NCBI GenBank assembly: GCA_964019415.1
Contig: OZ025870.1
Span: 5,756,915 to 5,820,914, forward strand
DNA length: 64,000 nucleotides
Direction of reading: 5' to 3'
From: Ianthella basta
Lineage: Eukaryota; Porifera; Demospongiae; Verongiida; Ianthellidae
Numbering within the stretch: position 1 is the first letter of the stretch; every line of letters begins with the position of its first letter. Position numbers and translations under genes: made by a program. This document shows, piece after piece, positions 13,271 to 63,768 of this stretch. The notes under the pieces are model-generated. The model did no database searches, was not told the DNA's origin, and saw only the letters and a program-made list of their open reading frames with translations.

Positions 13271-13344
13271 ACACCAGTATTGGTGTCTCAGTTGGCAGGG
13301 GGCACGAAGCTATTGGTTGGCAACCAGTGATCGCCTCCCCCAGT

Positions 13345-33133: not shown

Positions 33134-36100
33134 CTGTCTCTCCCCTGCCACCCACTGGGACTACCACTGGATCAGCAGCCCAACCTCAGCTGGGCACTGT
33201 TTTGAGTACATCAGATACAGAGCAACAAGGTTATAAAGCCATTGAACCAGACTTGCGCATGCATCCATATCATGTGTTTGCCCTATATATACAGTATTTT
33301 GTTGTGTTCTGTGCAGGAACTGCTGAATCTTCAGTGTCCGGCCTGAAGAGACCACCTGCACATGAGGTGATTCCTCCCATGAGAGACATTGAAGAAGGGA
33401 CCACACCAAAAGGTATAATGCAGTGGCCATGGGTGTGCAGTTAGTATGAACCTGAGATGGACTGGTTGCAATGGGATTGTACAAAAGTAATGACTTTCAA
33501 TTATCAAACCCTCTACCATTTGTGTTAGTTCATGGTCAATGATGCTAGTGCGATAGTTAAAAGTAATGCTATCGAAGATCATGAGAAGTCTTGGAGTTAC
33601 AGGAGGTGCATACTACGTTTTGTCAGGTCTGCATGAAGAGTGTTTTGGGGAAGATTAACACAGGAAGTGTTAATGTGTCTGAGTGAAAGGTAGCATGCAA
33701 TGATGCTACTTTGGCAGGCAGAACAGTCCTGCTGTGACATGTTAATGCTATTTTGTCGAAATGATAGCATTGAAAATTAGGATTGTACGGCTGCTCTATG
33801 CAAATGAAAATGGAACCTTTTTATGGCTGCTACTGTGTCTATATAAACATGCCAGCCTGTGCTACTAGAGTATTTGTTAGTGTGCATTGATTAATTCCGT
33901 CAGACTAGTTTTGTACCTAGGCTGTCCACTATAAGCAGCACAGGCTGGAAGAACAGCCAGGGCACCCCTAATCCTTACCCCAAACTGGGGCAGTTGAAAA
34001 CACTGTATACTTTCGTAACTCTACATGGAGATAGTTGGAGTAGGGAGAATGATTGAAACGTCAGCACAGCAACTCATATCATTAATTTTCAAACTGGCCC
34101 ACTTCAGGATGAAAGTAGTCAGCTTGCTCCAATGCTTTGATTCGCTGTTCCCATGATCTTCCAACGCTACATATGCATGCAGGGAAGAAAGCACTCGCTG
34201 ATGTCATTGAGACATAGCAAAGTTATTAGTAAGGCTATATGCCTGCAATGGCGTAAATGAATGTTGACTCCATCACTTTCCAGAATACCATTGCTCTGCT
34301 TTAGTGTCATGCAAGCAATTTTATCCACCGTGAGTGGAAATGTGATTGTTGTCCATACTGGGGAAGCTTCCACAAGCTGTGCTTTTTGCAAACGTTATGT
34401 CCCAGGCCTTCTCTAAGGCTAGAAAGATAAAAATTCAAGCTGAATTCAGTACAAGCTAGTTTTTGCTGTAATGTACAATTGCTTGCATGAGTAGTATACA
34501 TCACTATTTTTTGAGAATCTTTTTATGCATGTGCAAACAGTGCAAACAGTGGTTTCTGCCCTGCTAATTATCATGGATGCCCTGGGTATGAGGCTAGCTT
34601 CAGAGAGGTGAATCACATTACCCTAGGCCTTTGTGCGGAAGGTTTGATCTCCCTACATGCACTGTGTATTGCAGAGGTTAAGATGTAATGGTATAATTTG
34701 TTTTTAGTTGAATAACCTATGCAGGTCTATAAGTATTATTGCATGGCTATGTCCTATGTCAGCAATGTATCCAGAGTTGGTGTATTGGCATAGTTTTCAT
34801 GGATCATTTGTGTCATACTCAGGTGCAAGTAAAGTTGCAGCACAGACCACTCCGGTCCACTCCTTCATGGGATTGGTAAAGCGTAGACTGGAAGAGCATG
34901 AGGCACGAGGTGTGTGTACTTGTGTGTTGTGAAAACATGTCAACTATTATAGCATCTTGTACCATCTGTGCACACACTGTGTAGAGCGGCATTCCACAAG
35001 GGCAATTTTATCGAATATTCAGCAACTGGGTGGTACTATTGGTAGGTTTAAGTAAACTCTTCTAATCCAGGACACTCCCTAGAGGCGTGACCAGGAAATA
35101 GGCTCTAGCTGGGGCAGGTTTGGGCTACCTGAGAGTTAGTCTCGTTACCAGCCCACTTCCAGATGCCATTTTGACAGAGGCAGCCATTTTTGTTGAAGTG
35201 GGGCTAGGTAAGACTAAGTGAGAGTCACTTGTCTGTTGGAGCCATTGTGGACAATCCCAATCTGAATTTAAATTCAGAAAATTGAAACTGTACTTGATTC
35301 TAGCCAAAGCAAGAGCAATAACCATGGGTAAGCTATTAACAATTCAGGAGTGTGAATTCCTAGCAAAAAATGATTAAGTTGGCCTTTATGTAAGATAGCC
35401 ACTATCTCGTCGGTCCTAATCTGTGTACCATGTATAGCTATAGATACTCCACCCTAAACCATAGTAGGGAAGCCCAGTCATGTGGTCACTGCCCTACAGG
35501 TGCAATGTACAAACACAGGTGACTTTACACAACAAATGTGTCACTCGAATGTTTTGTGATAGCCCCAGTGCTGCATTTGAAAATTCCTCAAGGGGGGGAG
35601 GGGTAGGAAAAACTGAAGTTTCAAGATTTACGGAAGGGGGAATACTAGGTAAGCATATGGCTTGCTAAAATTCCAAAGGGGAGAGAAAGTTGAGTTTATA
35701 GCAATGGGGAGCCCCCCCCCCCCCCCCCCCCCAAATGCACCTCTGCCTTATGCATGCACTATAAAAATGATACTATCAAACTGTCAAAGGGTGAAGACTG
35801 TTTACTGGATTCTATGCTATGAAGTACACTTATTTTGTCAATGCATGTATACTACTGTCGCAATGCTATTGGCATGGTCATGTTCTCTCAGAAAGCTACG
35901 TAGTAGCATAAGCTGTCAGTCATTAATCACTTTTTGTTCCTTCAACTGTAACTCAGTTGATTCTTGTGGCGATCAATAGCTGAACACGAGGCGCTGTCTT
36001 GCTCAGCCATTTTGAAGCCATAACTAGATTCATTGCATAGGTGCTCATCACTTCCATGGACCCTGGTGATTAACCATTTATTGACTACACTTGCAATTGC

Positions 36101-36611
36101 CTATACCAATTATATTTTTACGGTTTCTCACACTAAATCATTCAGTAACATGGCTACACTGTTTTACCCCACACACATCCCTCCTTCCATTCCACAGCTG
36201 TCCCACCACCTGGTGGAGCTGCTGGCAGACAAGTGACCAGTACACAAGATGTAACCCATCCATCTGGTAAGGGCGATGAATACAATGACTTGTTGTTATT
36301 AGAACTTGTTCACATTGTTATATTTTATGACAGATGTGATAGAGGCCCTTGGGGGGAAAGCTGATTCAAAGTGGAGACGTTTTGGCACTTTTCTTCGCTT
36401 TGATTCTGCACTGATGGACACAATTGAGAGTGACAATAGCAAGAGTGTCACTGACTGTATGCTAGACCTGGTTACCAAGTGGGTGGATAATGAAGAAAGT
36501 AGTGGTGATCTCCCTCGCACATGGCAGACAGTGGTGGAGACAGTGAGAAAATTGAAGGATAGGAAACTGGCAGAGGAATTGGAGAAGAAGTATGGAGTGA
36601 GCAGTAAGTGA
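33134..36611 (+). CDS. Gene B: cassette-linker protein ending in a Death domain
   Basis: Six exons join in frame: PPP 33134-33229, ETAES 33317-33412, GASEV 34823-34909, KARAITMG 35304-35327, PPGG 36198-36266 and Death 36334-36611 (stop TGA 36609-36611). Every internal exon begins and ends in phase 1, with cag/tag acceptors and gttata, gtataa, gtgtgt, gtaagc and gtaagg donors. The first four to five exons encode a Pro/Ser/Thr-rich, probably disordered linker. The last encodes the globular domain. Death domains bind one another to assemble apoptotic or immune signalling complexes, so the product is probably a cytoplasmic adaptor or the tail of a receptor. The GASEV exon here has an extra stretch, FMGLVKRRLE. 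The first exon with the start codon was not identified, so the protein is incomplete at its N-terminus. This is the best-preserved Death-ending unit, with no stop in any exon. Confidence 0.6.
35712..35732. repeat. Poly-C run
   Basis: 21 consecutive C in the intron before the PPGG exon of gene B. Homologous runs are at 60999-61017 (gene D) and 14041-14057 (unit A, interrupted). Confidence 0.9.
36334..36611 (+). CDS. Death domain terminal exon of gene B
   Basis: The exon encodes about 92 residues: DVIEALGG, then KWRRFGTFLRFDSALMDTIE, CMLDLVTKWV, LPRTWQTVVETVRKL and AEELEKKYGVSSK. The spacing of W, F-L, I-E, L-x-x-W and T-W-x-x-V fits the six-helix Death fold, including the typical W before helix 5. 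A TGA ends it, and a (GT)n tract follows within 40 bases. It is closely similar to the exon at 63491-63768. Confidence 0.8.
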
Positions 36612-36647
36612 GCAAGCAGTTTTATTAGATATGTCTACCTCTCTGTT

Positions 36648-37102
<455 letters not shown>

Positions 37103-37658
37103 TGAATGTTTCCCACCGTGGTACAGAGCTGCTATGAGCAATAATAATCTGTAACACTTTCCCTCGATGTGAACAAATGGTTAACTCTATTGTGCACTGA
37201 TTCACGGCAGGTTCTTTTTGTGTGTAAGAAGCAGACTTTCAACCACCTTCCCACCTTCACTACGGGAGAAATGTCCTCAGAGTGATCTACAGTGTATGAA
37301 GTCGCTGTAGTTGACACTTCCACTACAGTTCCTGAGGCACAGCAGCCTAGGTGGCTGTGCGTGTCACAGTACGTATCTTCTGTGACTGCTTAGTCCAATG
37401 AAGTTGTTCAGATGCAACTTAATGCATGAAGCAGTATTAAACAGCTTCAGCCCTATACTTGTAATTATCCATTTGCAACACTACAAAATGCACAAAAAAA
37501 CACATTATTATAAGTGGTCTATAGTGAGTAATCGTTAAGTAACATTTAAGTAACGTGTATAAGGTGTGATTCAGCGGCATCCCTTCTCATAAATGCTCTA
37601 GATAGTTTCATTGCTCTACTGTACAGTCCTACACGCATCCCCTCTCTCCATTCCACAG

Positions 37659-40600
37659 CTGTCCCTCCCCCACCACCCTCTGGGACTACCACTGGATCAG
37701 CAGGCCAACCTCAGCTGGGCACTGGTTTGAGTACATCAGGTACAGAGCAACTAGGTTATAAAGCCATTGAACCAGACTTGCACATGCATCCATGTCGTGT
37801 GATTGCCCATTTTATACAGTATTTTGTTGTGTTCTGTGCAGAAACTGCTGAATCTTCAGTGTCCGGCTTGAAGAGACCACCTGCACATGAGGTGATTCCT
37901 CCCACGAGAGACATTGAAGAAGGGACTACACCAAAAGGTATGACACAATAATTGTGCAGTTAGTATGAACCTGAGATGGACTGGTTGGAATGGGACTGTA
38001 CAAGAGCTGTAATGACTTTCAATTAACAAGTCGTCTACCATTCTTGTTAATTCATGGTCAATGCTGCTAGTGCGATAGATAAATGCTATTGAAGATCATG
38101 AGAAGTCCTGGAGTTGCAAGAAGTACAGGGTTCAGGTCTCCATTAAGAGTGTTTTACGTAAGATTAACACAGGAAGTGTTAATGTGTCTGAGTGAAAGGT
38201 AGCATGCAATGATGCTACTTTGGCAGGCCAAACAGCCATGCTGTGACATGTTAATGCTAATTTGTTGAAATGATAACATTGAAAATTAAGATTGAACAGC
38301 TGTTTTATGCAAATGAAAAGAGAGCCTTTTTATGGCTGCTACTGTATCTAAAAGTGCCAACCTGTGCTACTATAGAGTATTTGCTAGTTTGCATTGAGCA
38401 TTTCCTTTAGTTTTGTACCTATGCTGTCCACTATAAGTAGCACAGGCAGGAAGAGCAGCCAGGCACCACGGTTCCTGGCCTCCACCCCACACCCTACCCC
38501 AAACTAGGGGTGGTTGAAAACTTAGGACATACGTAATAATGCAGACACTGTATACTTTTGTAGCTCTACATGAAGATAGTCGGAGGAGGGAGAATGATTG
38601 AAACGTCAGCACAGCAGCTCTCTGAAACTGGCCCTTCATGACGAAATTACTGCTAGTCAGCTCGCTCCAATGCTTTGATTCGCTGTTCTCGTGATCTTCC
38701 AACACTACATACGTAGGGAAGATAGCAGTTGCTGATTTCATTGAGACATAACAAGGTTATTAGTAAGGCTATATGCCTGCAATGACATAAATGTATGGTG
38801 ACTCCATCACTTTTCAGAATACCGTTGCCCTGCTTTAGTGTAATGCAAGCAATTTTGTCCACCGTGAGTGCAAATGTGACCATAGTGCGCAGCGGAGAAG
38901 CTTACACAAGCTGTGTGTTTTGCATGCCCCGTGCCTTCTCTAAGGCTGTAAAGAAATAGAGTACAAGCTAGTTTTTTGCTGTAATGTGCAGCTGCCTGCA
39001 TTACATACATCACAAATTTCGAAAATCTCATTTATGCAAGTGCAACAATGTGAACACTAATATTTGAAATTTCTTTTGTGAATGTGCAAACAATGCGAAC
39101 AGTGGTTTCTTGCCCTACTAATTATCATGGATGTCCTGGGTATGAGGCTAGCTTCAGAGAGGTGACTCACATACCCTTTGTGCGGAAGGTTTGATCTCCT
39201 TACGTACATTATGTATTGCAGTGGTTAAAATGTAATAGTATTGCTTTTGTGAGTTGAATAACTTATACAGCATTTCAAGTCTATAAGCATTATTACATAG
39301 CTATGCCCTATGTCAGCACTGATGCAATGTATTCAGAGTCAGTGTAGCTACCGGTATGTAAAATTTTGCAGTGAGTTGTCGTAAAATGGTTAAGGTAGTG
39401 ATGGTGTGTACTATGATGCATTTTTGTGTAGTTTTATTGGTTCATTTGTATCATATTTTAGGTGCAAGTGAAGTTGCACCACAGACCACCCTGGGTCCTG
39501 TTCAACCCTCCACACTAGTGGCAGAGCATAAGGCACAAGGTGTGTGTACTTGTGTGTGTTTCTGTAGAAGCAATGTATAGGTGCTTATATGTGCAGGGTT
39601 TAGGATAGTAGTAACAGCCAGTCTGATATTCTGTGCCATTTTGAAATGGATATTCATCAAGGAATTGTGGATACCCTAAAGTAAACACTTGCCATCAAGA
39701 TCGTCTATTGAGTCATGACCAGAAATGACATCCAGCTTGGTCTATATGGGACTGGTATTACCAACTGTGGAAGACATGACTGTGTATATTGTGCATAATA
39801 TAATATGGTCCATGTAGACTTTGTGAGGATGACAGCATCATACTGCAGAACTGATAGATGTATGTGATTGCTAGAATATTGCTACGTACACATTTGCACT
39901 TCATTAACGTAAGGTTCTATAGATGTGTTGGCAAATCCAACTACAATGCCTTTGAAGTGAGTGAGTGTAATTCGTGTAGCATTTTCCAAGAATAGTGCAT
40001 ATAAATCAACGATTATAGCCATAGTGTTTGATTGTACTGAGACATTTTTGAGAATTTAGTGACGTGAGATTGTTCTCCCTCAATTATCTGCACCATAGTT
40101 GGGAGAGAAGGTGCATCACAGTCCACTCCTGCTGAGCCCCCTGTGGCCACGCCAGTGAGAGAGCATGATGCTGAAGGTGTGTCTATGTGTGGTTATATGG
40201 AGGCATGCCCACTGTTACTTAAATGCCACTGCATGCATCTTTAACCCACTTGAGATGCATGCATACCAGTTACACGGCCGTGCGTTCTATGGGACTTTCT
40301 AAACCAATATGAATATTCAGAAACTGGGAGAAGCTGTGGGTTATCTAAGTAAACACACGTAGGGAAGGACACGCCTTAGAGGCATAAACAGGGCTTTTAA
40401 GGCTATGTAACAGTAACTGCACATTGCCGCAATTGTGGACATCCCAAACTGAATTCAAATTCAGACATTTTGAAGTTGGTCTCAGTTCAGCCATGTCTGA
40501 AGCAAGTCCCAAATCCATGGGTAAGCTATTCACAGTCCTGTGAGTCTGAGTTCATAACAAAATGATAAAGATTTGACTTTAAGAGTACTTTGGTTTATGT

Positions 40601-43600
40601 GTACTCATATCCCTCCTGGCAGAGTGTATAAGCATGCAGATAATAGGCACCCAGTTCATTTGTGATCTTCCTAAAGGGTTACTGTCTTGAATCCTGATCA
40701 ATGATGCCACTATATCTTTGAATCTTGACCATCTTTACCATGTGTTGTTACACTTAAGAAACTGCTGCCTTGCTAGGTGTGCTAAGTCTTACTGTTGTCA
40801 CTATACATAAAAATTATGGTAATAAATCATTCTCTATTTCAGCTTCTCTGTTCTTCAGTTTCTTCTTCATAGCTTTTTGAATTGAAACCAGAGAAACCAT
40901 GACCATCTTTTACACTACTTGGTATATAATCTTATTGTATTGCATATTCACTAGTCTTGTATTGGCCAGCCCTTTTGCGTATACTGTTCTTGCATAATGT
41001 CTGTGGGAACCAAGGACAGGGAGTGAACCACTGCACTCTTTGATGTGTGTACTACACACACCACACATAGAGGATTAGGAAGAGAGATTGTATGATTTGA
41101 AGCTTGAAAAGAGTGTGCATAAAGTCCATTCACTAAAGCCTGGGCATGTGAGGCTATCCAACTTCTATGTGATTCCTCATTCTACTCAGCTCATAATCAT
41201 GTAGGGATGGTGGTGGTTGTTTGTATGCTGTAATACAAACGGAAAGTAGCCCTACTCCCGAACAGTAGTAAGGACTGGCACAAGAAACTGCTTACGAGGA
41301 GGTGTGGCTGTAGAGTATGCAGAGCTAACCTTACTTCCACACGCAAGCGCGCTGTCGTGTAGAAAGCGTCGACGCCTTTTTTTGTTTCGTCTTCTTATTC
41401 TTATTCTTCTTCTTCATCAGCTGTAACTCCCAAACCATATGGAATAGAAGGATAAATTGTCCGCAGTTCTATGCCGCTTTCGACCTGTAAGTGCCTTTTG
41501 TAGGTTTGACGACTCCGCGTGCAAGTTCACAAATGGATGTTTCCAGGCCTTGGGGAGCCGTACCTGGGAGAAAGACGCCATTTTACCCTGACGCACTACA
41601 CGTTTCTGACACCGTCTTCCGCCTATTCCTCACACAATCACCATCTAATAGCTCCACATCGTGGTCGAACGACTGTGCCAGGGTATATACTGGATATGCT
41701 TCGCCCAACATTCGACCCACCACAGACTACCCTAGGTTGCCCACCCAGCCATATCCCACAATGCTACACACCCTGCCATGCATTTGGAGCACATTCCTTT
41801 GTTGCCACTGTTGTTTGAAAGCCTTTCTAGTAGATCAGCCGTTGCCCATGTGCAATTTGCATTCCATAAAAACTCAAGAAACAAGGGTGTGTAAAAATGT
41901 TTCCTCCAAAAACAAGGGCAAATGTAGGGATGGTGCAGTGTGCCTCTGAAGGGCATGGCAAACCAACTGGTGGAAAACCGTAGGAACAAGGAGGAGGGCC
42001 GGTCCATGCAAAGAGGGGGGCCAGCCTGTCCACACAAAACCCATGCAGGTCATTAACATTCGCTGACTTTGAATACATTTGCACCATCCCTACATCTGGC
42101 AACATTTTGCTGCGCTTGCGGTCTTGCTACCATCCCCTATTTCTCCACCTGCATATTGTTATGCAATTGTGAGTGTGCAGTAACAGGCTAACGAGCTGCT
42201 ACATGCAGGCGATTAAGATTGCATGCCTATTCCAGCTGTGCATCTTCCCATGTACACTTCACCAAACTGTATACATACACCCACGTACATGACTAAAGTA
42301 CATGACTAAAGCGCCTTTGAGGAAAGGCTGTACAGCTATATGTATAGCAATTGCAGAATCTGGTGTACACTGTGGTGCATGCATAGGTATTAGTGTGTTC
42401 TGATATACTGTAAGACACTAGCTACCTGGATATATGTACGTGTATGGAGGTTGAACTTCGCAAACATTGGTAGTGAAGTGTACAATGTTTGCGCTGGCCT
42501 AGAGCTAAACAGTGTGGGCATGAAAGTGGGTGTGGTGGTTTGCAGGCAGCGATGTAGTGAACACCTATGGTAAGTATCGCCACTGCATTTGAGCTTAGTG
42601 CTTTGCCGCAGGGTTTCATGGCAGAGCGAGATAGCTACATAAGAGATGAATTAACCCAAAGAATATGGAGCCTGCAACTGATACTTACATGGAAACACAT
42701 AACGAACTGGAAGAGTAGGAGGTTCTAGATTCTAGAGCACAGCAAAGTAGATTGGGTAGTAGGCAATTTGCAGGGATAAACCTTGTGGAAAGGAAAGATA
42801 GAGCACAGCAAAGCAGAGAGTTGGGTGAATTGTAAGACTGTACCTGTAGGTGCAAAAGGGAAGCTGAATAGCTGGAATGGTTGTGCGGTAGTAGCTAGGA
42901 GGTGCGGCAAAATGTTGCCAGATGTAGGGATGGTGCAAATGTATTCAAAGTCAGCGAATGTTAATGACCTGCATGAGTTTTGCGTGGACAGGCTGGCCCC
43001 CCTCTTTGCATGGACAGGCCCTCCTCCTTGTTCCTACGGTTTTTCCGCCAGTTGGTTTGCCATGCCCTTCAGAGGCACACTGCACCATCCCTACATTTGC
43101 CCTTGTTTTTGGGGGAAACATTTTTACACACCCTTATTATTCGTATTCTTCTCCGTCAGCTGTAACTCATGAACGATAATGAGTAAGGGACTGATTTATC
43201 CACAATTCTACAGCGCTTTCGACGGGTAAGTGCCTTTTGTAGGTTTGATGACTCCGCGAGTAAGTCCACAAATGGAGGTTACTAGACCTCGGGGAGACGT
43301 TCCTAGGAAAAAGACGCCATTTTACGCTGACGTAACTACACATTCGGACACACTTGATCGCCTAATCCTCTTTCAGTTGCGATTCAGTAGATCCACAACG
43401 CGGCGAGATGACTGTTCTAGAGCGCATACAGAAGATGCTTTGACCGACATTCGCCCGCGCACCGTTTCGGAGGTTATCCGCGGCCGTGCCATTTGGCAGC
43501 CATTTTCCCTTACTGCGAGGTTGCTTCCGGCCGACATTTCCGCGTTCGCTTGACGATGAGAGCTAGCTGTCACTTCTGGTTCCTCTCCACAATCATTCTG

Positions 43601-46165
43601 CATTCAAGGGTGTAGGTATGGTGCAGCTCTTTTGTGTGCATGTAGGGGCCGTACCTCTAGACCGCCTGTGGTGTGGGTAGATACGTAGCTATAGCCAATA
43701 TCCATCCAGACAGTGAGTCAGAGCGTCAGCAAAATATGATTGGGATTGTGGGAGTTACTCTGTGACCAAGCCAGTGTTGCCTACCACCATGACTTCCTGG
43801 ATAGGTAATTTGGGAGGGGGGGGGGGGGCTACAGCACCCTAGCCCTCTTGTTCTGCCATCCTAGCCTATAGCACAGCTAACTCCGCAAAATGATAGGCTA
43901 GCCAAACAGAAGTAATACATCTTGCACCCATCCACCACAGACTACCCTAGGTTGCCCACCCAGCCACATCTCACAATGTGCTACACACCCTGTCATGCAT
44001 TTGGAGCACATTTCTTTGTTGCCACTGTTGTTTAATTGGAAGCCTTTCTAGTAGATCAGCCGTTGCCATGTGCAATTTGCATTCCATAAAAAGTCTAGAA
44101 ACAAGGGTGTGTAAAAATGTTTCCTTCAAAAACAAGGGCAGATGTAGGGATGGTGCAGTGTGTCTCTGAAGGGCATGGCAAACCACCTGGCGGAAAAACC
44201 GTAGGTACAAGGAGGAGGGCCGGTCCATGCAGAGAGGGGACCAGCCTGTCCCCGCAAAACCCATGCAGATCATTAACATTCACTGACTTGAATACATTTG
44301 CACCATCCCTACATCTGGCAACATTTTGCTGCGCTTGTGGTCTTGCTACCATCCCCTATTTCTCCACCTGCATGTTGTTATGCAATTGTGAGTGTGCAAT
44401 AACAAGCTAAAGGGCTGCTACATGCATATGCAGGCGATTAAGATTGCATGCCTATTCCAGCTATGTATCTTCCCATGTACACATCACCAAGCTGCATGCA
44501 TACACCCATGTACACGACTAAAGCGCTGATGATAAAAGGCTGTAGAGCTATATAGCAATTGTGGAGTCTGGTACACTGTGGCACTTGCATATATATGTAC
44601 AGGTGTGTTCTGATATACTGTAAGACACTAGCTACCTGGATATACGTACATGAAGGTTGAACTTCACAAATGCCGGCAGTGAAGTGTACAATGTCTGTGC
44701 TGGCCTAGAGCTAAACAGTGTGGACATGAAAGTGGGTGTAGTGGTTTGCAGGCAGCAATGTAGTGAACAGCTAGGTATGGTAAGAATTGGCACAGCAGTT
44801 GAGCTTAGTGGTTTGCCAGGATCTCATGGTAGGGTGTGCTGGCTACATAAGAGATAATTATAAACCCAAAGAATATGGAGCCTGCAACTGATACTTACAT
44901 GGAAAAATACAATGCATTGGAAAAGTAGCTATAGGAGATTCAAAATTCTAGAGCACAGCAAAGTAGATTGAGTAGCAAGCAATTTGCGGGGAAACACTTG
45001 GTGGAAAGAGAAGATTGAGCACTGCAAAGCAGAGATGGACACATTGTACAGGGGAAGCTGAATAGCTGGAATGCATGGTTGTGCAGTAGTAGGAGGCGTG
45101 TCAAAATGTTGCTAGATGTAGGGATGGTGCAAATGAATTCAAGTCAGTGAATGTTAACGATCTGCATGGGTTTTGCGGGGACAGGCTGGTCCCCCTCTTT
45201 GCATGGACCGGCCCTCCTCCTTGTTCCTACGGTTTTTCCGCCAGGTGGTTTGCCATGCCTTTCAGAGACACACTGCACCATCCCTACATTTGCCCTTGTT
45301 TTTGGAGGAAACTAGATATATACATACTGCATTGTGTGTACTACATACAGTATTATTATTCTATTTAATAATTTTAGATAATATTATTCCAGTCTAAGTT
45401 TTATTCGAATATATATTCAACAACTGAAAGGGACCCACACTCACTAAATAGACACTTGTAATCAAGGCGCCCCCTAGTTGCGTAACCAGTAAATATATAT
45501 AATCCAATTGGGATGTGTTGAGATTCTGAACAAGTTTGGCTGTATCTCCTTGCCATTTTGCACAAACTCTATACTTAAGTTTGATAACTGAAGCTGCATT
45601 TGGTTCTGTCACATTAGATAGCACTGGCTAATACACAAAGTGTGCATATGTTCAGAATGAGAGAGAGTAATTGGCATTAGGCTACTGATACTCTGACGAT
45701 AACCTTTGCTTGCATGGATAGGGTCTTTTGCTGTATGTGCTAGGATGTACCAGGTGTTAAGTGAAGTTTCATTGCTCAGTTTACTTTGGATACTGTACAG
45801 CTAATGCACTAATATTCTCTCCCAAACACTGCACATATTATTTGCTTGCCATTTGTGGCTCAGCCACACTTGATCAGGTACTTCAGAAAAGTTCTGCAGA
45901 GTTTGTGGACAAAATGAACAGTCAGGTTATTGCACCGACTTTGTGTACGCTGGGCCTAATTCCAGATAAAGTTAAGCTTGCAATTGTTCAGCCTACCATG
46001 ACTAGGGAGGAAGCCAATGATCAGCTCTTTCAGTATATCATAAAGGAAGTTGATAATGTGAAAACTGTGAGGGAAATTTTTGATTTTGCTGCCAAGAAGC
46101 CAGCTTATGGGAAAATGAACACATTTGCCAAGGACATGCTGAAGAAGCTGGCAACAGTAAAATGA
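37659..46165 (+). CDS. Gene C: cassette-linker protein ending in a CARD-like domain
   Basis: Exons: PPP 37659-37754, ETAES 37842-37937, GASEV 39462-39539, a divergent second GASEV-type exon 40099-40176 (VGREGASQSTPAEPP), a KARA-type exon 40491-40520 (AMSEASPKSMG) and a terminal exon 45864-46165 with stop TGA at 46163-46165. All are phase 1-1 up to the terminal exon, which is entered in phase 1. The linker follows the same layout as genes B and D, but the end is a different death-fold domain and the PPGG exon is absent. The intron before the last exon is about 5.3 kb, swollen by two large fold-back elements. Linking the linker to the terminal exon rests on phase and order; a separate gene at 45.8 kb is the alternative. 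The start exon was not found. Confidence 0.5.
40521..41200. other. Intron of gene C, no exon recognised
   Basis: The short - strand ORF at 40951-41133 has no family features. The sequence here is single-copy compared with the rest of the window. Confidence 0.35.
41200..43170. mobile_element. Large fold-back element 1 in the gene C intron
   Basis: The arms 41887-42115 and 42905-43135 are reverse complements with tgtagggatggtgca at the inner and outer edges, tcattaacattcgctgac and tccatgcaaagagggg. The left flank 41200-41430 is a reverse-oriented relative of the 7370-8410 repeat. The ORFs in the arms (such as 41491-41949 and 42783-43172) mirror each other because of the inverted repeat and have no recognisable domain. 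Confidence 0.6.
43230..43900. other. Sequence related to the 41490-41700 flank
   Basis: gtgccttttgtaggtttgatgactccgcg is shared with 41490-41520, and the two continue in parallel for about 200 bases. The ORF at 43230-43553 follows this repeat and is not assigned. A G-run lies at 43817-43829. Confidence 0.4.
43900..45320. mobile_element. Large fold-back element 2 in the gene C intron
   Basis: The arms 44087-44340 and 45105-45310 are reverse complements and homologous to the arms of element 1. The spacer (44341-45104) is also similar to that of element 1 (42116-42904), so the whole element was duplicated or inserted twice. No transposase was seen. Confidence 0.6.
45864..46165 (+). CDS. CARD-like terminal exon of gene C
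   Basis: The exon encodes about 100 residues: ATLDQVLQKSSAEFVDKMNS, then IAPTLCTLGLIPDKVKLAIV, TREEANDQLFQYIIK and FAKDMLKKL. The order of hydrophobic helices fits a CARD: an N-terminal helix with LDxVL, a conserved loop before LIPDKVK, a central QLFQYI helix and a C-terminal KDMLKKL helix. CARDs recruit caspases and adaptors by pairing with other CARDs. A DED or a divergent Death domain is a possible alternative. Nothing in sequence relates it to the two Death exons beyond the general fold. The acceptor is ctcag at 45859-45863. Confidence 0.55.
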
Positions 46166-48780: not shown

Positions 48781-48849
48781 TTCATACTTACTCACTCCGT
48801 CCTCCATTCCTCTATCCCCTTCCCACTCCGTACCTCCATCTCTGTGTGT

Positions 48850-51479: not shown

Positions 51480-51645
51480 CTTTTTCGTTGATGGTGTTCC
51501 TCTTCCTTCACATCTATTGGGGTTTGCTGTGGTTTGCTGCTTATGAGAAGAGCTACATCAAAGGAGCTATTGTCCTCTTTACTCACACCGCTGCATCTGT
51601 CCTAGTGAGTTTGGCATTTGTAGTGATTGAAGTTGTGAGTACTAC

Positions 51646-52366: not shown

Positions 52367-52375
52367 CCAGCTGCA

Positions 52376-52790: not shown

Positions 52791-52949
52791 TCTGCCTTCA
52801 ACCTGTACTATGACCGCACAGTGTCTGCTCCTGTGGTCCTCGCTGTCCAGTTCCTCCTCCTGGTAGGACTGGTCATCTGCAGCTTGTGGACTGCTGGAGC
52901 TAAACCATTGAACTTTAAGTATTTATTGTTTATTCATTGATCACACTAA

Positions 52950-54220: not shown

Positions 54221-54226
54221 AACAAG

Positions 54227-54413
54227 CAACAGTAACTCAACGCCATGATGAACCACATTGCCGTAAAGTTCGCTATGCATTCCTAATTTTCTTGTACAGC
54301 TACATGGGCCCAAATGTCTAGCTAGCTAGTCCCATGTAGCTACTACAAGGAAATTAGGAATGCATAGCGAACTTCATGTCAATGTGGTTCATCGTGGTGT
54401 TGAGTTACTGTTG
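54227..54413. repeat. Fold-back MITE directly upstream of the caspase-like gene
   Basis: The arms cagtaactcaacgccatgat ... caaatgtctag and gtcccatgtagc ... gtgttgagttactg are nearly perfect reverse complements (about 90 bases each) around a ctagctagctag centre. The right edge lies about 10 bases before the proposed start codon at 54424. Confidence 0.8.
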
Positions 54414-54423
54414 CCATTGCAAA

Positions 54424-55316
54424 ATGGCGGCCGGAAGTGGGCTGGGAACGAGACTAGGCAGTGCCTTACTTCTCGCTAACAGCTATGTAGACAATCCGTA
54501 CCTAACCAACCTGACAAGAATCGATCAAGCAGCTGTGGATTTCTGTAATACGTTTTCTACTCTCCGATTTGACCCTGTGATCTACTATGATGAGACAAGG
54601 GGTGGTTTCCTTGAGAAACTCCGCACCTTCGTACAGGATCCTACAAGAGCTACACAGAAGTACATTGTCTTCTTCTACATTGGCCACGGTGGAGACGGAG
54701 ATATCCTTTACATGCAGGATGGATTGGTAGTGACAACTAAGGAGATTGTCGACATCTTCTCTGGCCTCCCAAGCACCATGTTCAAGATATTCTTCATCGA
54801 TGCCTGCAGAGGAGACGAGAAGACACCGGGACCGGGTGGTTACTATTCAGAGTATCCAAACACCCTCGTGTCTCACTCAACGCTGCCACACAAAAAAGCC
54901 TGGCCCGGAGACGACTATGGTACGCGTACGTAGCTATGATGGTGCTCCGTAGTTTTGCATTGCAACCTATACTCACCCACTCCTAGCTTGAACTTTTCCT
55001 CAATTCGGTCTTAATGAGCGAAGTGGACAGACACCTTTGATATTATGTTTATCTCCTTGCAGGTTTATACTCGAAGACTCTACTGAATGCGCTGTTGAAC
55101 ACTGGTGGCACTGTGCAGTCTGCTCTTGATTCTGTTCAGGCACAGCTCCTTGTGCATGGTCAACAGTACCCACTGTACACAAATGCCGTTCCACCTCTCA
55201 GTTTGGAAGCAGATGTTAGGGCTGCTGGAGGCAAGCTGGAGCCCCCACCCCTTCCACGGAAAGTGACTGAGCTTCAGGCACAAATGGGAAAAATCAGAAA
55301 TGGTATATATGTATAA
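54424..55316 (+). CDS. Caspase/paracaspase-like cysteine protease (C14), two exons
   Basis: Exons 54424-54919 and 55063-55316 (stop TAA) join in phase 1 through a gtacgc donor and ttgcag acceptor, giving about 249 residues. The caspase-haemoglobinase fold is clear: ALLLANSYVDNPYLTNL as the first strand, YIVFFYIGHGGDGDILY with catalytic His88, then KIFFIDACRGDE with catalytic Cys128. Later come HSTLPHKKAWPGDDYGLYSK and TLLNALL, matching the small-subunit start. DACRG is nearer to caspase QACRG than to metacaspase DSCxSG; overall spacing is also like MALT1-type paracaspases. No prodomain is fused, so activation would need partners. Residues 1-12 come from sequence of the palindromic MITE family (atggcggccggaagtgggctgg). 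If an upstream exon exists, the acceptor ggcag at 54457-54461 could be used instead. The last exon could splice on at 55304. Confidence 0.7.
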
Positions 55317-55336
55317 TATACGTATGTGTAGTATGT

Positions 55337-55410
55337 ACCATTACCGAGGAAACCATGCATGTTTTTCAAGCCCTTAACTCCTACTTGGACATGGTTTCCT
55401 TGGTAATGGT
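55337..55410. repeat. Hairpin just after the caspase-like gene
   Basis: accattaccgaggaaaccat (55337 on) and atggtttccttggtaatggt (to 55410) pair with one mismatch. It starts about 20 bases after the stop codon. It could be a MITE or a structured 3' end. Confidence 0.7.
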
Positions 55411-55499
55411 ATATATAGACTTCTTGAAAGGGTTGTGTTGCTAATATTGGTAATTTATATTATCGTACTTGATGGTAGCATCAATGGAATGTAGTCTAC

Positions 55500-56940
55500 A
55501 CTAGTCTGGCTCGCTAGACTGTCCCATCTAAACGCCAGGCGATTAGGCTGGGAAGGTACTAGTCTAGCCACTAGCCCCTACTTTGTCATAGCGTGCGGGG
55601 GCGGAAGAAAAGATAAGGTGTAGCAGAATGTGTGAATTCCATGCCTCACAATCAATGCGCTACTGCCTACTGGACGGTTATCAAGAACGTTGATTATGAA
55701 CAACGTCAATGAATTATACTTAGTAACGAGAGGAAATGACGGCCAGAGGGTGGGAATTGTCATTGCATAGGCTTTCCTCGAGGATCGCGGGCTCCACAGC
55801 TTGCAGTGAACAAATTATTGTCTCGTATACGAGTGTCGCACTGTCCCAAGTTTGGTACAATAAGCACCTGTGGTCTCTATAATTGCTGCTGTGATCTGAC
55901 GCAGCAGTGATCTCATTGGTCAGCGTGATGTGTGGAATATACGCTTTCTGCTAGACCCTACTTTTCTTCTGCCCTCGTGCGCAATGACCAAGTAGGGGCT
56001 AGTGGCTAGACTAGGAAGGGATGGTCTAGTGGCAGTAATGATTAGTTCACACCTATTCAATCAACCAGATGTGTTTATCAGGAATTCGTGCTAATAGTAT
56101 TAATTGGCTTGAGGAGCTTCAGTTACACAAGAGTGGGTCTTCGTGGCTGTGGCTGTGTTCTAGCTTTGGTGATTGATGAGGGCTCGAAGCTCAGCAATCC
56201 CTCGCTCTATTCCTCCACTTTTACTCTTGGATCACTTTCGCGGAGAAGGTTGCAATGGGGCAGTCAACGGTTTAGAACTGGAAAAGATCGCACCTGCACT
56301 GTTAGATAGCGAGCGACACAAAGGCTACTTTCTTCCTTGGGCAGATGATGAGCTGGGGGAATTACTGAGCAACACGTAGCAGAGAAAATAGATGGAAATC
56401 AATGTAATACGTTTTGACCACTAAGGTCTTCATTAGTTTCAATACTCAGTATATGTACAGTATTGTAACTGATGAAGACTTTCATGGCCGAATCGTATGT
56501 TACATTGATTTTCATCTATTTTCTCTGCTACGTGTTGCTCAATAATTCCCACTGTCTTTTTGATGTCGTAGCAATTACCCTCTACCAAATTATATTAGAT
56601 GATGAGCTGTCGCAAGTATTTTCCCACGAGTAGTGGGAATAGGCTGACTGTAGTCTACAGTCAGCCTATATATCTGCCTTTCACCAACTTGTACTTCTGT
56701 TCTAGTGGTTGGCAGCAGCAATTGCAGAAGCGCTTGTACTGTACCATTTCATCTGATATATGGTTCGGCCCAATTGCGCAGATTTACCGTAGTGTATTGC
56801 TTATGAATTGCACAATACAATAGGTGTGACTTTGATAATGTGAAGGTGTGAACTAATCGTTGCCACAAGTAGACTGTCCCTCCCATTCATTGCCCAAGGC
56901 ATGATTGGACGGTCTAGCAAGCCAGACTAAGTGTACGCTA
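55500..56940. mobile_element. Composite TIR element, agtctggcttgctagacc family
   Basis: The outer ends ctagtctggctcgctagact and ggtctagcaagccagactaa are inverted. A second inverted pair (55559-55620 / 55960-56025, around ctagccactagcccctact) and a third (gattagttcacacc at 56040 / ggtgtgaactaatc at 56845) are nested inside. The small relative at 9797-10090 has the same outer ends and the third pair. The interior ORFs (56088-56379, 56599-56823) are unassigned. Confidence 0.6.
56350..56553. repeat. Long palindrome inside the composite element
   Basis: The arms ggaattactgagcaacacgt ... and acgtgttgctcaataattcc are nearly perfect reverse complements around 56450. Each arm, read inward to outward, contains a tgatgaagac...gtc/gcc-gaa/aaa string. 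Confidence 0.75.
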
Positions 56941-58380
56941 AAGTAGTTATCACCTTGCGATAACTTAGTTATCACCCAGTGATAACACCTGTCACCTAAT
57001 AATAACTAAAAATCATTGGCCGAAAAAGTAGGTGATAGTTGTAACCTATTGATATAACTATCACCATTTGACCTTTACTGGTCACCCTGACATGCATGGC
57101 TGATGTCCACTGATGTATCCTTTAGTCATTTGCATGTACAACTCATGCTCCTCCTTGCCCCGACCCAAGTGATTCAGACTTGGGTATTCTATCTGATTGT
57201 GCCACTTGAGACTAAGTATGACACCAATTGCAAGGTTGCCCTTTGTGAGCATAGAAGCACTGTTCACTGACCCATGTTGAGGTGTATCGGCAGCAGCAAC
57301 ATGGATTTGTTCCATTTTTAATTGTTTCATGTACTGTAGGGCGCTCCCGTGAGTGTAACATGAATTCCGGACTGAATAGGCTATATATATGTTTAATAAG
57401 CTAATATTATAGTGACAGAGCAGCTCCTAACCATACATAGTATTGATTGGTTTGACTCATGCGTGAAGGCAGTGGAGCATTGGCACAGGAAGAAAAGATA
57501 AGTTAAAGTAGGAGTTCCTAACAATGGGTGTCTTAACACAGCGCACCGCCTGCACGCGAAGGAACAGCTTCTATGTTTTCGCGCATTTAGGGCAGGAGTC
57601 AATGTGACGACAGACTGGGAGTTCCTGCATCCCTGTTCCTTTGTGTAGAGGTGGTCAGCAGTGCCATGTTTTGATTACTCTATTTTGTTCTGAACCCCTC
57701 ACTTTACTTTATTTGTCCCTTAAAAGCGGCTTGTGCAGGCGTCTTCAGATCAGGAACGAAGCTTGTCATTATTCTATGGGAATCTTCAGGTCTGGTGTCA
57801 TTCTCTTAGTATCACTTATGCCAACAGCGGCAGGAGAAACTGCTCTAACCCGTCCCTAAGAAGGCATGTACCTCTTCAACGGTGTGAGATGAAGATTACA
57901 TCACTCGCAGAACATAATTTGAATGTGTGATTGTCCAATCAAATGGCATTGTAGGCAGTAAAATCCCGTTTACCTGTGTGATATAGCTATAACATATACC
58001 TCGGCTTTCGGCCTCAGGAAACCTTCGTAATACAGTCTATATCTATTACATATATGTAGTACGGTGATTGCGCAACCATATGGAGCTAAGCATTAGCAGG
58101 TGGTCCTATATATATGTAGTACAGTAGGTTGGTTCACTGCCTCTATTTACGAACGCGGTGTTCATATTTACCTTGGTCTTCACGCCTTGGTAAATATGTA
58201 AGCGCCTCAGTCATACATATATATCGGTTATGGACCTCCCTACATACAGTACCATATAAATTCCATATACTTATTATTTTGCATTTCTTATAGGTTATGC
58301 ATTAGTATATATGTATCTTATGTGTACTGTCTATGTCACCAGTTGTTCCTTCTGGTTTGCTCTTGGGGGGGAAGTGACTA
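56941..58380. other. No gene recognised; short repeats
   Basis: 56946-57066 has several gttatcacc/ggtgataac repeats in both orientations. 58166-58204 is a hairpin (catatttacc / ggtaaatatg). ORFs at 57641-57930 are unassigned. Confidence 0.35.
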
Positions 58381-58700
58381 CACTGATGACGCTGTAATAC
58401 ACTGTATCTGTCATCTTCTGTGACTGCCTAGTCCAATGAAGTTGATCAAAGGCAACTCAATGCATGAAACAGTACTAAAATGGCTTCTGCCCTATAGTTG
58501 TAATTTCCTTTTGCAACAGTACAAAGTGCACAAAAACCATGTTATTATTTATGAAGTGGTCTATAGTGAGTTATCTTTCAAGAAAATTTTAGGTGACGTG
58601 GTGTAAGGTGTGATTCGGTGTCATCCCTTCTCATAAATGTTCTAGGTGTATTCATCTCTAGTGTACAACCCTACACACATCCCCTCCCTCCATTCCACAG

Positions 58701-61700
58701 CTGTCCCTCCCCCGCCACCCTCCGGGACTTCCTCAGGATCAGCTAGCCAACCTCAGATGGGCATTGGTTTGAGTACATCAGGTGAAGAGCAAGAAGGTTA
58801 TAAAGCCTTTGAGCCAGACTTACACATGCATCCATGTCGTGTGATTGCCCATTTCATACAGTATTTTGTTGTGTTCTGTGCAGAAACCGCTGAATCTTCA
58901 GTGTCCAGCCTGAACAAACCACCTGCACATGAGGTGATTCCTCCCATGAGAGACATTGAAGAAGGGACCGCACCAAAAGGTATAACACATTGGGTGTGCA
59001 GGTAGTATGAACCTAAGATGGACTGGTTGGAATGGGACTGTACAAAAGCTGTAATGACTTTCAATTAGCAAGTCGTCTACCATTCGTGTTAATTCATGGT
59101 CAATGCTGTTAGTGCGATAGATGAATGCTATTAAAGATCATTAGAAGTCCTGGAGTTGCAGGAGGTACATATGTTGTTCAGGGCTGCATTGGAAGTGTTA
59201 TTGTGTCTGAGTGAAAGGTAACATGCAATGGTGCTACTTTGGCAGGCAGAACAGCCATGCTGTGACATGTTTAATATTAATTTGTCAAATGATAGCATTG
59301 AAAATTAAGATTGAACAGCTGTTCTATGCAATGAAAAGAGAGCCTTTTTATGGCTGCTACTGTATCTAAAAAGTGCCAGCCTGTGTGCATTTGTTAGTTT
59401 GCATTGAGCCTATATGCCTGCAATGGCTTAAATGAATGGTGACTCCATCACTTTCCAGAATACTGTTGCCCTGCTTTAGTGTCATGCAAGCAATTTGTCC
59501 ACCGTGAGTGGAAATGTGATTGTTGTCTGCAGTGGGGAAGCTTCCACAAGCTGTGCGTTTTGCGAAAAAAGCCTTCTCTAAGGCTGGAAAGAAATCAATT
59601 AAAGCTAAATTGAGTGCAAGCTAGTTTTTGCTGATGTACAATTGCCTGCGTAGTATGCATCACAAATTTTTGAAATTCTTTTGTGAATGCACAAAAAATA
59701 TGAATAGTGGTTTCATGCCCTGCTAATGATCATGAATGTCCCCCTGGGTATGAGGCTAGCTTCAGAGAGGTGACTCACATACCCTGTGTGCGGAAAGTTT
59801 GATCTCCTTACGTACATTATGTGTTGCAGAGGCTAAGATGTAATGGTATTGATTTATATGAGTTGAATAACTTATGCAGCGTTTCAAGTCTATTTACATA
59901 TGTCCTATGTCAGCAATGATACAATGTATTAAGCTTCAGTGTATTGGTATATGAAATGTTGTACTTAAGTGCTGTGAAATGGTTAGAGTAGTGATAGTGT
60001 GTAGTATGATGCATGTTCGTGCCATCATTAGTTTTCATGGGTCATTTGTATCATACTTAGATGAGCGTGAAGTTGCACCACAGACCATTTCGGGTCATCT
60101 TCAACCCTCCAGGCCAGTGGCAGAGCATGAAGCACAAGGTTTGTGTACTTGTGTGTTGTGAAAGCTGACGATTATAGCATCTTGTACTGTCTGTGTACAT
60201 ACTGTGTAGAGCGGCATTCCACAAGGGCATTTTTATTGAATATTCAGCATCTGGGTGGTACTGTGGGTAAGTTTAAGTAAACCCTTCTAATCTAGGACAC
60301 TCCCTAGAGGCGTGACCAGGAAATAGGATCTAGCTGGGGTGCATTTGGGCTACCTGAGAGTTAGTCTTGTTTCCAGCCCACTTCCGGACGCCATTTTGAC
60401 AAAGACAGCCATTTTAAGTGGGGCTAGGTAAGACTACGTGAGAGCAGATCTGTCACTTGTCTGTTGGAGCCATTGTGGGCAATCCCAATCTGAATTCAAA
60501 TTCAGAAAATTGAAGCTGTACTTGATTCTAGCCAAAGCAAGAGCACTAACCATGGGTGAGCTATTAACAATTCAGGGAGTGTGAATTCCTAGGAAAAATG
60601 ATTAAGTTTGCCTTAGTGTAAGATAGTCACAATCTCTTTGGTGATTTGCTTCTAATCTGAGTACCATGTATAGCTATAGATACTCCACCCTAAACCACAG
60701 TAGGGAAGCCCAACCAGTTTGCTTGTTAACTAGATGTAGAACTCGAAGGTGACAGTGGTAGCATTCTCATATTCATTGTCACGTGGTCACTGCCCTACAG
60801 TACAAACACAGGTGACTTTACACAACACATGTCACTCGAATGTTTTGTGATAGCCCCAGTGCTGTCTTTCGAATATTCTTAAGGGGGGTAGGAAAAACTG
60901 AAGTTTCAAGATTTAAGGGAAGAGGGAATACAAGGTTGGCATATGGCTTGCTAAACTTCCAAAGGGGAGTGAAAGTCGAGTTTCTATGCAAGGGGGAGCC
61001 CCCCCCCCCCCCCCCCCAAAATGCACCTCTGTCTTATGCACTATAAAACAATACTATCAAAGTGTCAAAGGGTGAAGACTATTTACTGCTTGCTACCCGG
61101 ATTCTATGCTATGAAGTATACTTATTTTGTCAGTACATGTATACTACTGTTGCAATGCTATTGGCATGGTCATGTTTCTCTCAGAAAGCTACGTAGTAGC
61201 GTATGCTACCAGTCATTGACTACTTTTTGCCCCTTCAACTGTAACTCAGTTGATTCTTGTGGTGATCAATAGCTGAACACGAGCCGCTGTCTTGCTCAGC
61301 CATTTTGAAGCCATAACTAGATTCAATGCATGCTCATCACTTCCATTGACCCTGGTGATTAACCAGTTATCGACTACACATACAATTGCCTATACCAATT
61401 ATATTTTTACGTATTCTCACAAAAAATTATTCCGTAACTTTGCTTCGCAACAACCCTGCATGCAATCTGGGGTTTGAAAGGATTGAAGAGCCAGTTGTGA
61501 CAAGTCCTACCCTAAATAGCTCTAAGTGTTGTGTGCCTCTTGCCGAAACTGGTATGCATTATATGAAGTTTTAGCAGAGAGGCCTGGTGCCCAACAATGG
61601 TGCCTGGGCTCTGTGCAGTCAATGACGTCTCCCCAGCGAAGGAGAGTTGAGGCTGGCCTGGTGGGGTCATATCTGCGGGGTGCAAGTGAAGGCATGCAAT

Positions 61701-63768
61701 GGGTTGATGCTGGGTTACACTTTGTTTTGGTCCAGGCAGTGGAGGTGATTCTATTGCTGAACAGACCATTCTTAGGCGCTGGGCATCTGCTGACCCTATC
61801 CGGGCAGTACAGGCTGTGTAAGATGAAGGTCCTAGGCCATGTAGACAGCACTTTGCGTGGTCTGCATCCGAATGCAGAAGTACATTGCGTAGGAATTGTC
61901 ATTAGCAGTCGCCTATGGACTTTCTGAAGGTCAGTCGGCAGCTGTGTGCACATCCTCCGTCTGTAAAAGCCATTCAGGAGGATGACCTGTGTTATGTAGT
62001 CAGTGCCACTTCTGGTCTGCTCCTGATGCATGGAAGTAGGAGCCTGTTCCTTTCTTTGTAAATTCAAGATGGCAGACAATTGGTTCATGGGTTTTCGCTG
62101 CACTCTCTTCAGCAGCATCTTATTCGCATACCTGCCCCCTTAGATCAAGATGTGGTACAGCGTTCGACAACTGGGAAAGTTTGCTTGCAGTGCGTTGATG
62201 CATGGGAGGAGTTCGCAGACAACCATAGGAGCTCCTTTTTTGCGTTGCAGCACAGGATTCAACTCTACCTCTGCAGGACAGTGTCCTGATTGCATCAAGT
62301 ATAGAGCAACACAGTTTAAGATACCAATGAACCAGATTTACAGATATTTGAACAGCATTGACACGTATGTACCATACTGCACAAGGTAGTTTATATATGG
62401 TAGGGGGGCCATAAGTCCTTTCTCTACAGTAAAGTGATTACATTTCTACACTTCATCATTCATAAGAAGCATCTGCCTTTCAATTCCACCTTCTGTGACT
62501 GAATAAGAAATCGTCAAAAGCTGGCTGCACGGCTGTGTCAGCGTACTCCAACTTATTGTAGCCAATTAGCGTCCATGGCTCTAATTCCTGATGCATAGTA
62601 CTTACACAGCAGTGACAGCTTGTACTGCACACCAAAGTAGTCAAGAACTTGCAATTGGATCCAGAATTCCCTATGATAAACATAGTCCATGCATTTTAGT
62701 TGATCTGACAAAGCTCCTTAAGTGTAGCTCTGAGTTGTCCTTACAGCCCATGCTTAATCATATGATGTCATTGCTTCTGGCAAATAACCCCAACAGTGCA
62801 AGTGTCACCAGCTGCCTACCATTCGAAGAAGGCCTATCTGTATTCCGGTATGAAGATTCACTATACACATAGATATTCTGTTAACTGTTTGTGAGGAAAT
62901 CAACGAGTCAAATACTGCAATAATTCAGTGACTCAGAGTTCTTCAGATAATAATTAGATGTGAAACATTTATGACCGAAGATTTTGTTTATGACTAAGGG
63001 TTAGTTGTGTCTGTGCAAAGTTTGTTCACATAGTTGAAGCCCCATAGATTGAGGATGTCAATGACACCAAACGCAAGCCATTTTGCCTGCAATGAAAAGT
63101 AGTAGCAGCCCGAAACTTATGAATTTTAGAATTAGGGTGTGTTTGGAAATAGTACCCTGACTGTACATATTCTCCTAAGTAATTACAGTGGCACACTATT
63201 GTACACCAGTAAACCTAGATGTGTTGCGTGGTGTTCATATTGTAGGTTAAAACATTCAATGCTCCTTCTCCCTGTATGATAAATGTATTAGCTCAGTGGC
63301 TCCATGGCTGCAGTGTTTGACCCCTCACAATTCCCTCCTTTCATTCCACAGCTGTCTCACCACCTGGTGGACCTGCTGGTGGACAAGTGACCAGTATAAA
63401 AATAACACACGCAGATGGTAAGGGCATTAAGTACCATGACTTGTGAACATGAGACATTCAATGACATATTGTGTTGCCTGCCTATGACAGATGTGCTAGA
63501 TGCAATTGGGGGGGAACTTGATGCAAAGTGGAGACATTTTGGCACTTTTCTTCGTTTTGAGCCCCCACTGATGGACACAATTGAGAGTGACCATAACAAG
63601 AGTGTCACTGACTGTATGCTAGACCTGGTTACCAAGTGGGTGGCGTACTACGAAGGTAGTGGTAGCCTCCCTCGCACATGGCAGACAGTGGTGAACGCGG
63701 TGAGGAAATCAAAGCATACGAAACTGGCTGAGAAATTGGCAAAGACATACGGAGTGAGCAGTAAGTGA
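58701..63768 (+). CDS. Gene D: cassette-linker protein ending in a Death domain
   Basis: Exons: PPP 58701-58796, ETAES 58884-58979, GASEV-type 60061-60138 (here DEREVAPQTISG), KARA 60532-60555 (AKARALTMG), PPGG 63352-63417 (VSPPGGPAGGQVTSIK) and Death 63491-63768 (stop TGA). All cassettes are phase 1-1 with intact signals (gttata, gtataa, gtttgt, gtgagc, gtaagg) and no stops, so the unit appears functional. Layout and linker composition match gene B. The intron before PPGG is longer (about 2.8 kb) and contains the block shared with 9470-10720. The upstream neighbour is the caspase-like gene at 54.4 kb, about 3.4 kb away and on the same strand. The start exon was not identified; the protein could include an upstream domain not recognised here. 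Confidence 0.6.
60556..63351. repeat. Long intron of gene D with array-shared blocks
   Basis: 60556-61480 matches introns of genes B and unit 0, and contains a poly-C run at 60999-61017. 61560-62330 and 62400-62520 match unit 0 (9470-10720 and 11280-11400). 62530-63290 has no clear match elsewhere in the window and no exon. Long ORFs on either strand (such as 61522-62118) are not conserved in frame with unit 0. Confidence 0.5.
63491..63768 (+). CDS. Death domain terminal exon of gene D
   Basis: About 92 residues: DVLDAIGGELDAKWRHFGTF, LRFEPPLMDTIE, CMLDLVTKWV, LPRTWQTVVNAVRK and AEKLAKTYGVSSK. It aligns without gaps to the gene B Death exon; differences cluster in the first helix, around residues 20-35 and near the end. 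The conserved W positions are all kept. A short (GT)n run follows the stop codon. Confidence 0.8.

Follow-up and report, generated by a model that had tools for sequence, protein, structure and literature searches.

A sponge caspase array in which Death and CARD exons appear to have been exchanged behind a recurring candidate start exon

In amphioxus, domain recombination and shuffling led to an expansion to 45 caspase genes (PMC3196919, PMC2575513), and many of the caspases carry exchanged Death, DED or CARD prodomains in a lineage-specific manner. For the sponge Amphimedon, 357 members of a group of proteins with Death-like and TRADD-N domains were described (PMC8195603), which form a lineage-specific expansion with one to three Death-like domains and variable partners, including caspase. 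Here, we describe a stretch of 64,000 nucleotides from another sponge, Ianthella basta (GenBank assembly GCA_964019415.1, contig OZ025870.1, positions 5,756,915 to 5,820,914 of the forward strand; the whole stretch is referred to as the window), which belongs to an array of caspase-like exons, Death exons, CARD exons and a short recurring element, termed E. In amphioxus, the death fold precedes the caspase as its N-terminal prodomain; here, it lies 3' of the caspase and behind the conserved element E, and a fusion of both is putative. The domain order reported for Amphimedon likewise differs from that of the array, and a search of this genome for NCOA6_TRADD-N (PF13820) gave no match, as did the same search in the control.

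RAIDD/CRADD is the CARD-Death adaptor of caspase-2. In the array, too, CARD and Death exons lie beside a caspase with caspase-2 as best match in the PDB, and on contig C1 a CARD exon stands about 1.5 kb upstream of a Death exon with its leading exon EX4; in the window, however, CARD and Death are split between units and the CARD exon is closed by a stop of its own. CARD-only and PYD-only proteins regulate inflammasomes, and the single death-fold domains beside caspases could represent similar decoys, although single-domain products are here deduced from E only. Among the titles listed in searches of the open-access literature, none dealt with such an array, and accounts of sponge NLRs (PMC12909245) and of sponge promoters (PMC4773876) did not alter the picture.

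The genome searched comprises 209 Mb in 96 contigs, and counts from whole-genome searches are lower bounds, as at most 150 candidates were scored. Searches with Death, CARD, linker, caspase and E placed the window (C3:5756915-5820914) inside a one-strand array of about 190 kb (C3 5705914-5895945), which contains eight caspase-like exons (K), 14 copies of E, an element ending in CCATGG/GTRAG (the slash marks the exon border), six Death exons (D) and seven CARD exons (C). With linkers and one truncated copy of E (at 5757445) omitted, the modules follow each other as K E D C K E C K E E E D E C K E D K E C E C K E D E C E D K E D K E C, and the choice between Death and CARD ends along the array is DCDCDCCDCDDC. 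In this order, the next module after K was E in eight of eight cases and 12 of the 13 Death or CARD exons were directly preceded by E, which was reached by 12 and by 1 of 100,000 label shuffles, respectively; as the units were duplicated as blocks and are not independent, these counts are not true probabilities. The repeat of the array is K-(linker)-E-(Death or CARD), in which the linker is not always present. Death and CARD exons are not confined to it, with at least 74 places in the genome at ≥40% identity to the Death exon and at least 122 at an expect value of ≤0.01 for the CARD exon. While these sequence features are real, the gene models built on them are less secure. The most economical reading, held tentatively and with slightly less than even confidence, is that small Death or CARD genes started by E lie in a caspase array and have exchanged their ends. 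The features of the three units B, C and D and of the caspase in the window, all on the + strand, are as follows:

33134..33412, +, unit B, linker exons AV and TAES (TAES = 33317-33412); donor between them lost (AT for GT), intervening stretch open in frame
34823..34909, +, unit B, EX3 (third linker exon), phase 1-1
35222..35327, +, unit B, E, ends ACCATGG/gtaagc, candidate start exon
36198..36266, +, unit B, EX4, proline/glycine exon, phase 1-1, immediately 5' of Death
36334..36611, +, unit B, Death exon to TGA; donor GTAAGT overlaps the stop
37659..37739, +, unit C, linker exon AV
37842..37937, +, unit C, linker exon TAES
39462..39539, +, unit C, linker exon EX3
40099..40176, +, unit C, extra linker exon EX3b
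40429..40520, +, unit C, E of divergent type, ends TCCATGG/gtaagc
45864..46165, +, unit C, CARD exon, stop TGA
54424..54919, +, caspase large-subunit exon (K), motifs GHGG and DACRG; first codons inside a transposon terminal repeat
55063..55302, +, second caspase exon, putative small subunit, phase 1-1, without Pfam match when taken alone
58701..58781, +, unit D, linker exon AV
58884..58979, +, unit D, linker exon TAES
60061..60138, +, unit D, linker exon EX3
60452..60555, +, unit D, E, ends ACCATGG/GTRAG
63352..63417, +, unit D, EX4
63491..63768, +, unit D, Death exon, lineage differing from the other five of the array

We favour E as the putative start exon of a small death-fold gene because its ATG fits the phase-1 exons and because it is the only patch found to be alignable between unit C and units B and D beyond the third linker exon of C. 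Spliced to phase-1 exons, the ATG G of E would give methionine followed by alanine, the latter from EX4 or from the CARD exon. Among the matches listed in the genome searches (13 and 11, overlapping), E occurs only in this cluster.

The sequence-only reading of this stretch had already proposed Death domains as ends of B and D and a CARD-like domain as end of C. As a lone exon, Death of B reaches 24.2 bits against the PF00531 cut-off of 22.6 (16.2 bits within a long frame), whereas Death of D stays below the cut-off with 15.3 bits but is 73% identical to B, so that both are Death domains, B by profile and D by similarity. Within the Death alignment (two window and 15 locus sequences), a Death match at an expect value of ≤0.1 was obtained for 14 of the 17 scanned family members. 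The end of unit C is a CARD by its six-helix fold and not by sequence profile, which leaves the earlier call valid for the fold and without a CARD profile match over threshold. In the CARD alignment, i.e., the window and 23 of 29 other loci, PF00619 was not among the families listed at an expect value of ≤1 for any of the 24 members, CARD_2 appeared in two and Dark_CARD in one of them, all under threshold, and the best hit in a PDB profile search was CARD8 (expect value 0.31). A stop ahead of the donor-like end of the CARD exon was present in five of five C3/C4 copies and in 10 of 30 copies read overall. None of the six Death and seven CARD matches of the array contains an internal stop.

A CARD exon without a stop was found on contig C1 (L011/L042, C1:15829396-15834595, minus strand), where a phase-1 donor closes it and EX4-Death follows after about 1.5 kb; this could be a CARD-Death gene of the RAIDD type. 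Two more such pairs at the same spacing were noted by coordinates only, the sequence of one locus having been read.

Exchange of the ends is indicated by the Death exon of D, which resembles C1 copies (protein identity up to 82%) more closely than it does B. A tree of 27 Death exons places the five remaining array exons in a group with support of 99/96 that leaves D out, and monophyly of the array exons was recovered in none of 200 bootstrap trees and was rejected, with p 0.0148, in the approximately unbiased test, which presumes a group named in advance, the group being here array membership and the tree having already been viewed. E and the introns following it are 90.5–96.2% identical between D and B, compared to 82.1% in EX4 and 84.9% in Death. 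As Death of D falls outside the array clade while E and the following introns remain that similar to B, the ends were probably exchanged. Moreover, a comparison of B, D and the units at 5868726 and 5880448 yielded 27 informative sites in nine runs (p 2e-4 for blockwise grouping): six of seven sites before E join B with unit 5868726, all six in the intron after E join B with D, and all five in Death join B with unit 5880448. Such blockwise switches would be expected if units recombined or underwent gene conversion with each other. The earlier proposal of swapped ends beside a caspase is therefore strengthened by the Death tree, the site runs and the array order, and the idea of a locus generating new death-signalling combinations gains support. 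Paired elements of the array lie 64.2–65.0 kb apart, with caspase and D-type linker being 98% identical in these pairs; the paired offsets point to block duplication, but the parts differ in identity.

Within the array, the ratio of nonsynonymous to synonymous substitution (dN/dS) of Death has a median of 0.55 over 15 pairs, none of which exceeds 1. The C1 copies (11 loci) have a median of 1.03, and 27 of their 55 pairs exceed 1, some of these showing almost no synonymous change; this could reflect diversifying selection or relaxed constraint. The three most distant of the fetched Death loci are not part of these ratios or of the tree, and no ratio was obtained for pairs lacking synonymous change.

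Mechanistically, symmetric phase-1 exons would let the ends swap without breaking the frame. With its ATG G, E would start a small death-fold gene encoding a Death protein of about 115 or a CARD protein of about 100 residues near the caspases. Such proteins may act by homotypic Death/Death or CARD/CARD assembly, and these assemblies could bring caspase-2-like enzymes to upstream sensors or be capped by decoy proteins. Swapping ends would then alter which partner a unit can bind, and the linker exons might be used in longer forms that skip E.

Several points weigh against small genes of this kind. E might be regulatory or an internal exon instead of a start exon, and six of its 14 copies have no caspase directly upstream. 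Between B and D, identity at E (96%) barely exceeds that of neighbouring introns (mostly 84–94%, once 96%), which does not support E as the most conserved stretch, and exons are no more conserved than introns. Regarding exchange, D-B identity is 85.7% before E and 63.1% in the short intron before Death. The window CARD exon and its twin 65 kb upstream differ by a dN of 0.20 and a dS of 0.15 at 65% protein identity, so this pair appears to be without sign of constraint, its split probably being older than that of the 98%-identical parts. An ETS/YY1-like motif upstream of E, considered as promoter of caspase and E, was rejected: the 25-nt motif has 628 genome copies at ≤2 mismatches and none in the reversed control, and among the places listed it forms 13 inverted pairs 733–747 bases apart (counted by eye), as in a small transposon. 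As the motif is a transposon terminal repeat, no promoter is claimed.

54421-54445, with related copies near 35154, 46603 and 60379, 25-nt transposon terminal-repeat motif, often in inverted pairs about 735 bases apart

Further counterpoints concern the 3' side of Death. In the window clade GTAAGT overlaps the Death stop, and GTRAGT occurs near the end of the Death domain in 13 of 28 relatives, compared to about 0.05 expected per sequence. Linker exons follow 0.6–1.5 kb downstream of Death on C7 (two loci), C10 and C3 (two loci besides the window, TAES only), and in one C22 and one C7 locus (two of three loci scanned) the Death exon ends in a phase-1 donor 0.3–0.7 kb before the same linker exons; these C22 and C7 loci have one Pfam match each and a second Death-like stretch seen by eye. 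This suggests that some transcripts run on past Death.

An alternative that we consider unlikely, though the likeliest of the four rivals, is a caspase with a C-terminal death-fold domain, in which caspase exons are spliced via the linker to EX4-Death or CARD within one polypeptide; such an order would be the reverse of the usual N-terminal prodomain. The caspase-like neighbour noted by the earlier reading is confirmed by the large-subunit exon, which matches PF00656 (3e-13, 50.4 bits against a cut-off of 21.4) in an open frame with the catalytic His/Cys motifs GHGG and DACRG, both aligned in the closest PDB match, caspase-2 (expect value 2.8e-9). For the second exon, tblastn listed the window alone, while a stretch in locus L074 is similar by eye. 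The apparent start codon at 54424, as that of the 65-kb twin, is supplied by the 25-nt transposon repeat, and the other 31 caspase matches listed begin aligning at residue 6 or later. In favour of a fusion, caspase exon 2 has a phase-1 donor and both linker and end exons start in phase 1, each of the eight caspase exons is followed on its strand by E and an end (with the nearest end deleted in one unit), in the 65-kb twin of unit C the linker comes directly after a decayed caspase exon (tblastn 2.9e-12), and an alignment of six copies shows no other start exon for the linker. However, E with its own ATG lies between caspase and ends, five of eight units have no linker between caspase and E in the DNA search, units without caspase exist, and a stop a few codons past the exon 2 donor would allow exon 2 to be the last.

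Quite improbable in our view is an internal Death exon, whose GTAAGT would be used to splice Death to the linker of the next unit, giving Death-linker-CARD for B and C. The strong donor overlapping the stop and the downstream linker exons described above, including those behind a phase-1 donor, would fit such transcripts. On the other hand, all 20 divergent relatives read (of 44 places ranked 31–74 in the Death genome search) have a stop 1–15 codons past the end of the match, and in ten of them GTRAGT lies 13–25 nt beyond the first base of the stop, a position that would suit an intron of the 3' untranslated region; moreover, the donor is shared by chromosome 1 copies for which no linker was detected in the 1.5 kb downstream. 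The view that GTAAGT makes the Death exon necessarily internal is thus weakened by the nearby stops and partly revived by GTRAGT in the relatives. Given the stops on the one hand and the donors on the other, Death may be the last exon or may be followed by a linker.

Very doubtful, too, is the gene model of the sequence-only reading, namely three multi-exon adaptors starting just before AV and joining the linker to Death (B, D) or CARD (C). Its near-identical phase 1-1 linker cassettes do hold for all 12 linker exons checked (11 in B, C and D, one in the partial unit at 12 kb), which have AG/GT borders and symmetric phases; the AV of B, with AT in place of its donor, falls outside this set, and the AV donor is also lost in the 12-kb partial unit. 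Protein identity to unit C is 97% (B) and 85% (D) for TAES and 81% (B) and 82% (D) for AV, and the linker proteins are conserved as far as distant copies on other contigs. Third-position changes are only weakly in excess, whatever the exon type, and not at all in EX3, so that the coding status of the linkers rests on conserved frames and splice sites. While the exon phases and this conservation are compatible with linker adaptors, EX3 carries a stop in two of seven copies, the alignment of six copies revealed no conserved start exon or open frame before AV, and the linker module has its own left boundary, common to caspase-headed units. Together with the lost AV donor and the intervening E, this speaks against simple gene models, and the boundaries given to genes B, C and D are tentative. 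The common linker is also a weak constant part, preceding E in only three of eight caspase-headed units (DNA search), and this role falls rather to E. Adaptors as such are possible products, but caspase fusions, single-domain proteins and partly decayed copies fit equally.

In TAES of distant copies (contigs C22 and C7) we noted KR-(10 residues)-KRR, which we take to resemble a predicted bipartite nuclear localisation signal; the AV-linked TAES exons of B, C and D are without the second cluster.

Least probable of all is a graveyard of decaying recent duplicates with few working genes, which the Death exon deleted from the copy at 1–11.4 kb, the lost AV donors and EX3 stops, the frameshifted caspase in the 65-kb twin of unit C, transposons within units C and A and the small third-position excess in every exon type would fit, but the stop-free Death and CARD matches, the Death dN/dS median below 1 and the open window caspase frame with its catalytic motifs argue against.

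Repeated duplication and the partial units named by the earlier reading were also seen in the self-comparison of the window:

1..11400, +, degraded copy of a region of the unit D type, with a deleted Death exon and inserted transposons
12142..13684, +, partial unit with AV, TAES and an EX3 with stop codon
30488..31012, +, partial unit with EX3 remnant and E
32690..32981, +, partial unit with AV (3' half, as judged by eye) and a copy of TAES that retains the second basic cluster KRR

The deletion in the first copy is marked by position 11397 matching 62519 and 11401 matching 63741. Unit C has taken up, between its E and its CARD exon, two copies of an element of about 1.2 kb (41880-43138 and 44100-45312) with terminal inverted repeats of about 210–235 nt at 96–97%. 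Long frames at 3296-6598 (+), open over 1100 codons, and 23931-25483 (−) presumably belong to retrotransposons of the long interspersed nuclear element type, judged by what look like reverse transcriptase motifs.

Apart from these, an exon resembling Aph-1, a gamma-secretase subunit, lies between unit C and the caspase (51383-51667; expect value 1.3e-4, under the Pfam cut-off) and is absent from the families listed in the frame scan of 49000-58500. A 288-codon open frame (20442-21305) belongs to a family with at least 105 genome matches, at least ten of 95 places checked lying within 8 kb downstream of a Death or CARD match, taken from a hand-picked list, on the same strand. The 288-residue family gave no Pfam or PDB match, its fold model is too poor to use (predicted local distance difference test score 42), and NCOA6_TRADD-N as its identity was dropped after the matchless search mentioned above, equally empty in the control. 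No Pfam match was found in window 14-23 kb, and neither NACHT nor LRR, which an NLR would combine with Death or CARD, gave a match at an expect value of ≤0.1 in the three + strand frames of 14000-23000, 30000-40000 and 49000-58500.

In a rather speculative extension, to which we give little credence, alternative starts and splicing of frame-neutral cassettes could yield free caspases, caspase-linker-Death/CARD fusions and stand-alone Death/CARD proteins from one combinatorial locus. Recombination would keep swapping the ends, and individuals could differ in their death-signalling wirings, perhaps for self/non-self or pathogen discrimination.

The layout of the array, with small E-started Death or CARD genes as the favoured reading, suggests that this locus continually reshuffles proteins of cell-death signalling. 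Amphioxus is known for caspases with exchanged partner domains, and sponges for expanded death-fold sets; in the present array, the exchange is visible at the DNA level, in frame-neutral exons, a recurring E and swapped Death and CARD ends within one cluster. If transcripts agree, the cluster would offer a direct way to test how new death-signalling circuits evolve in animals and whether such loci vary between individuals.

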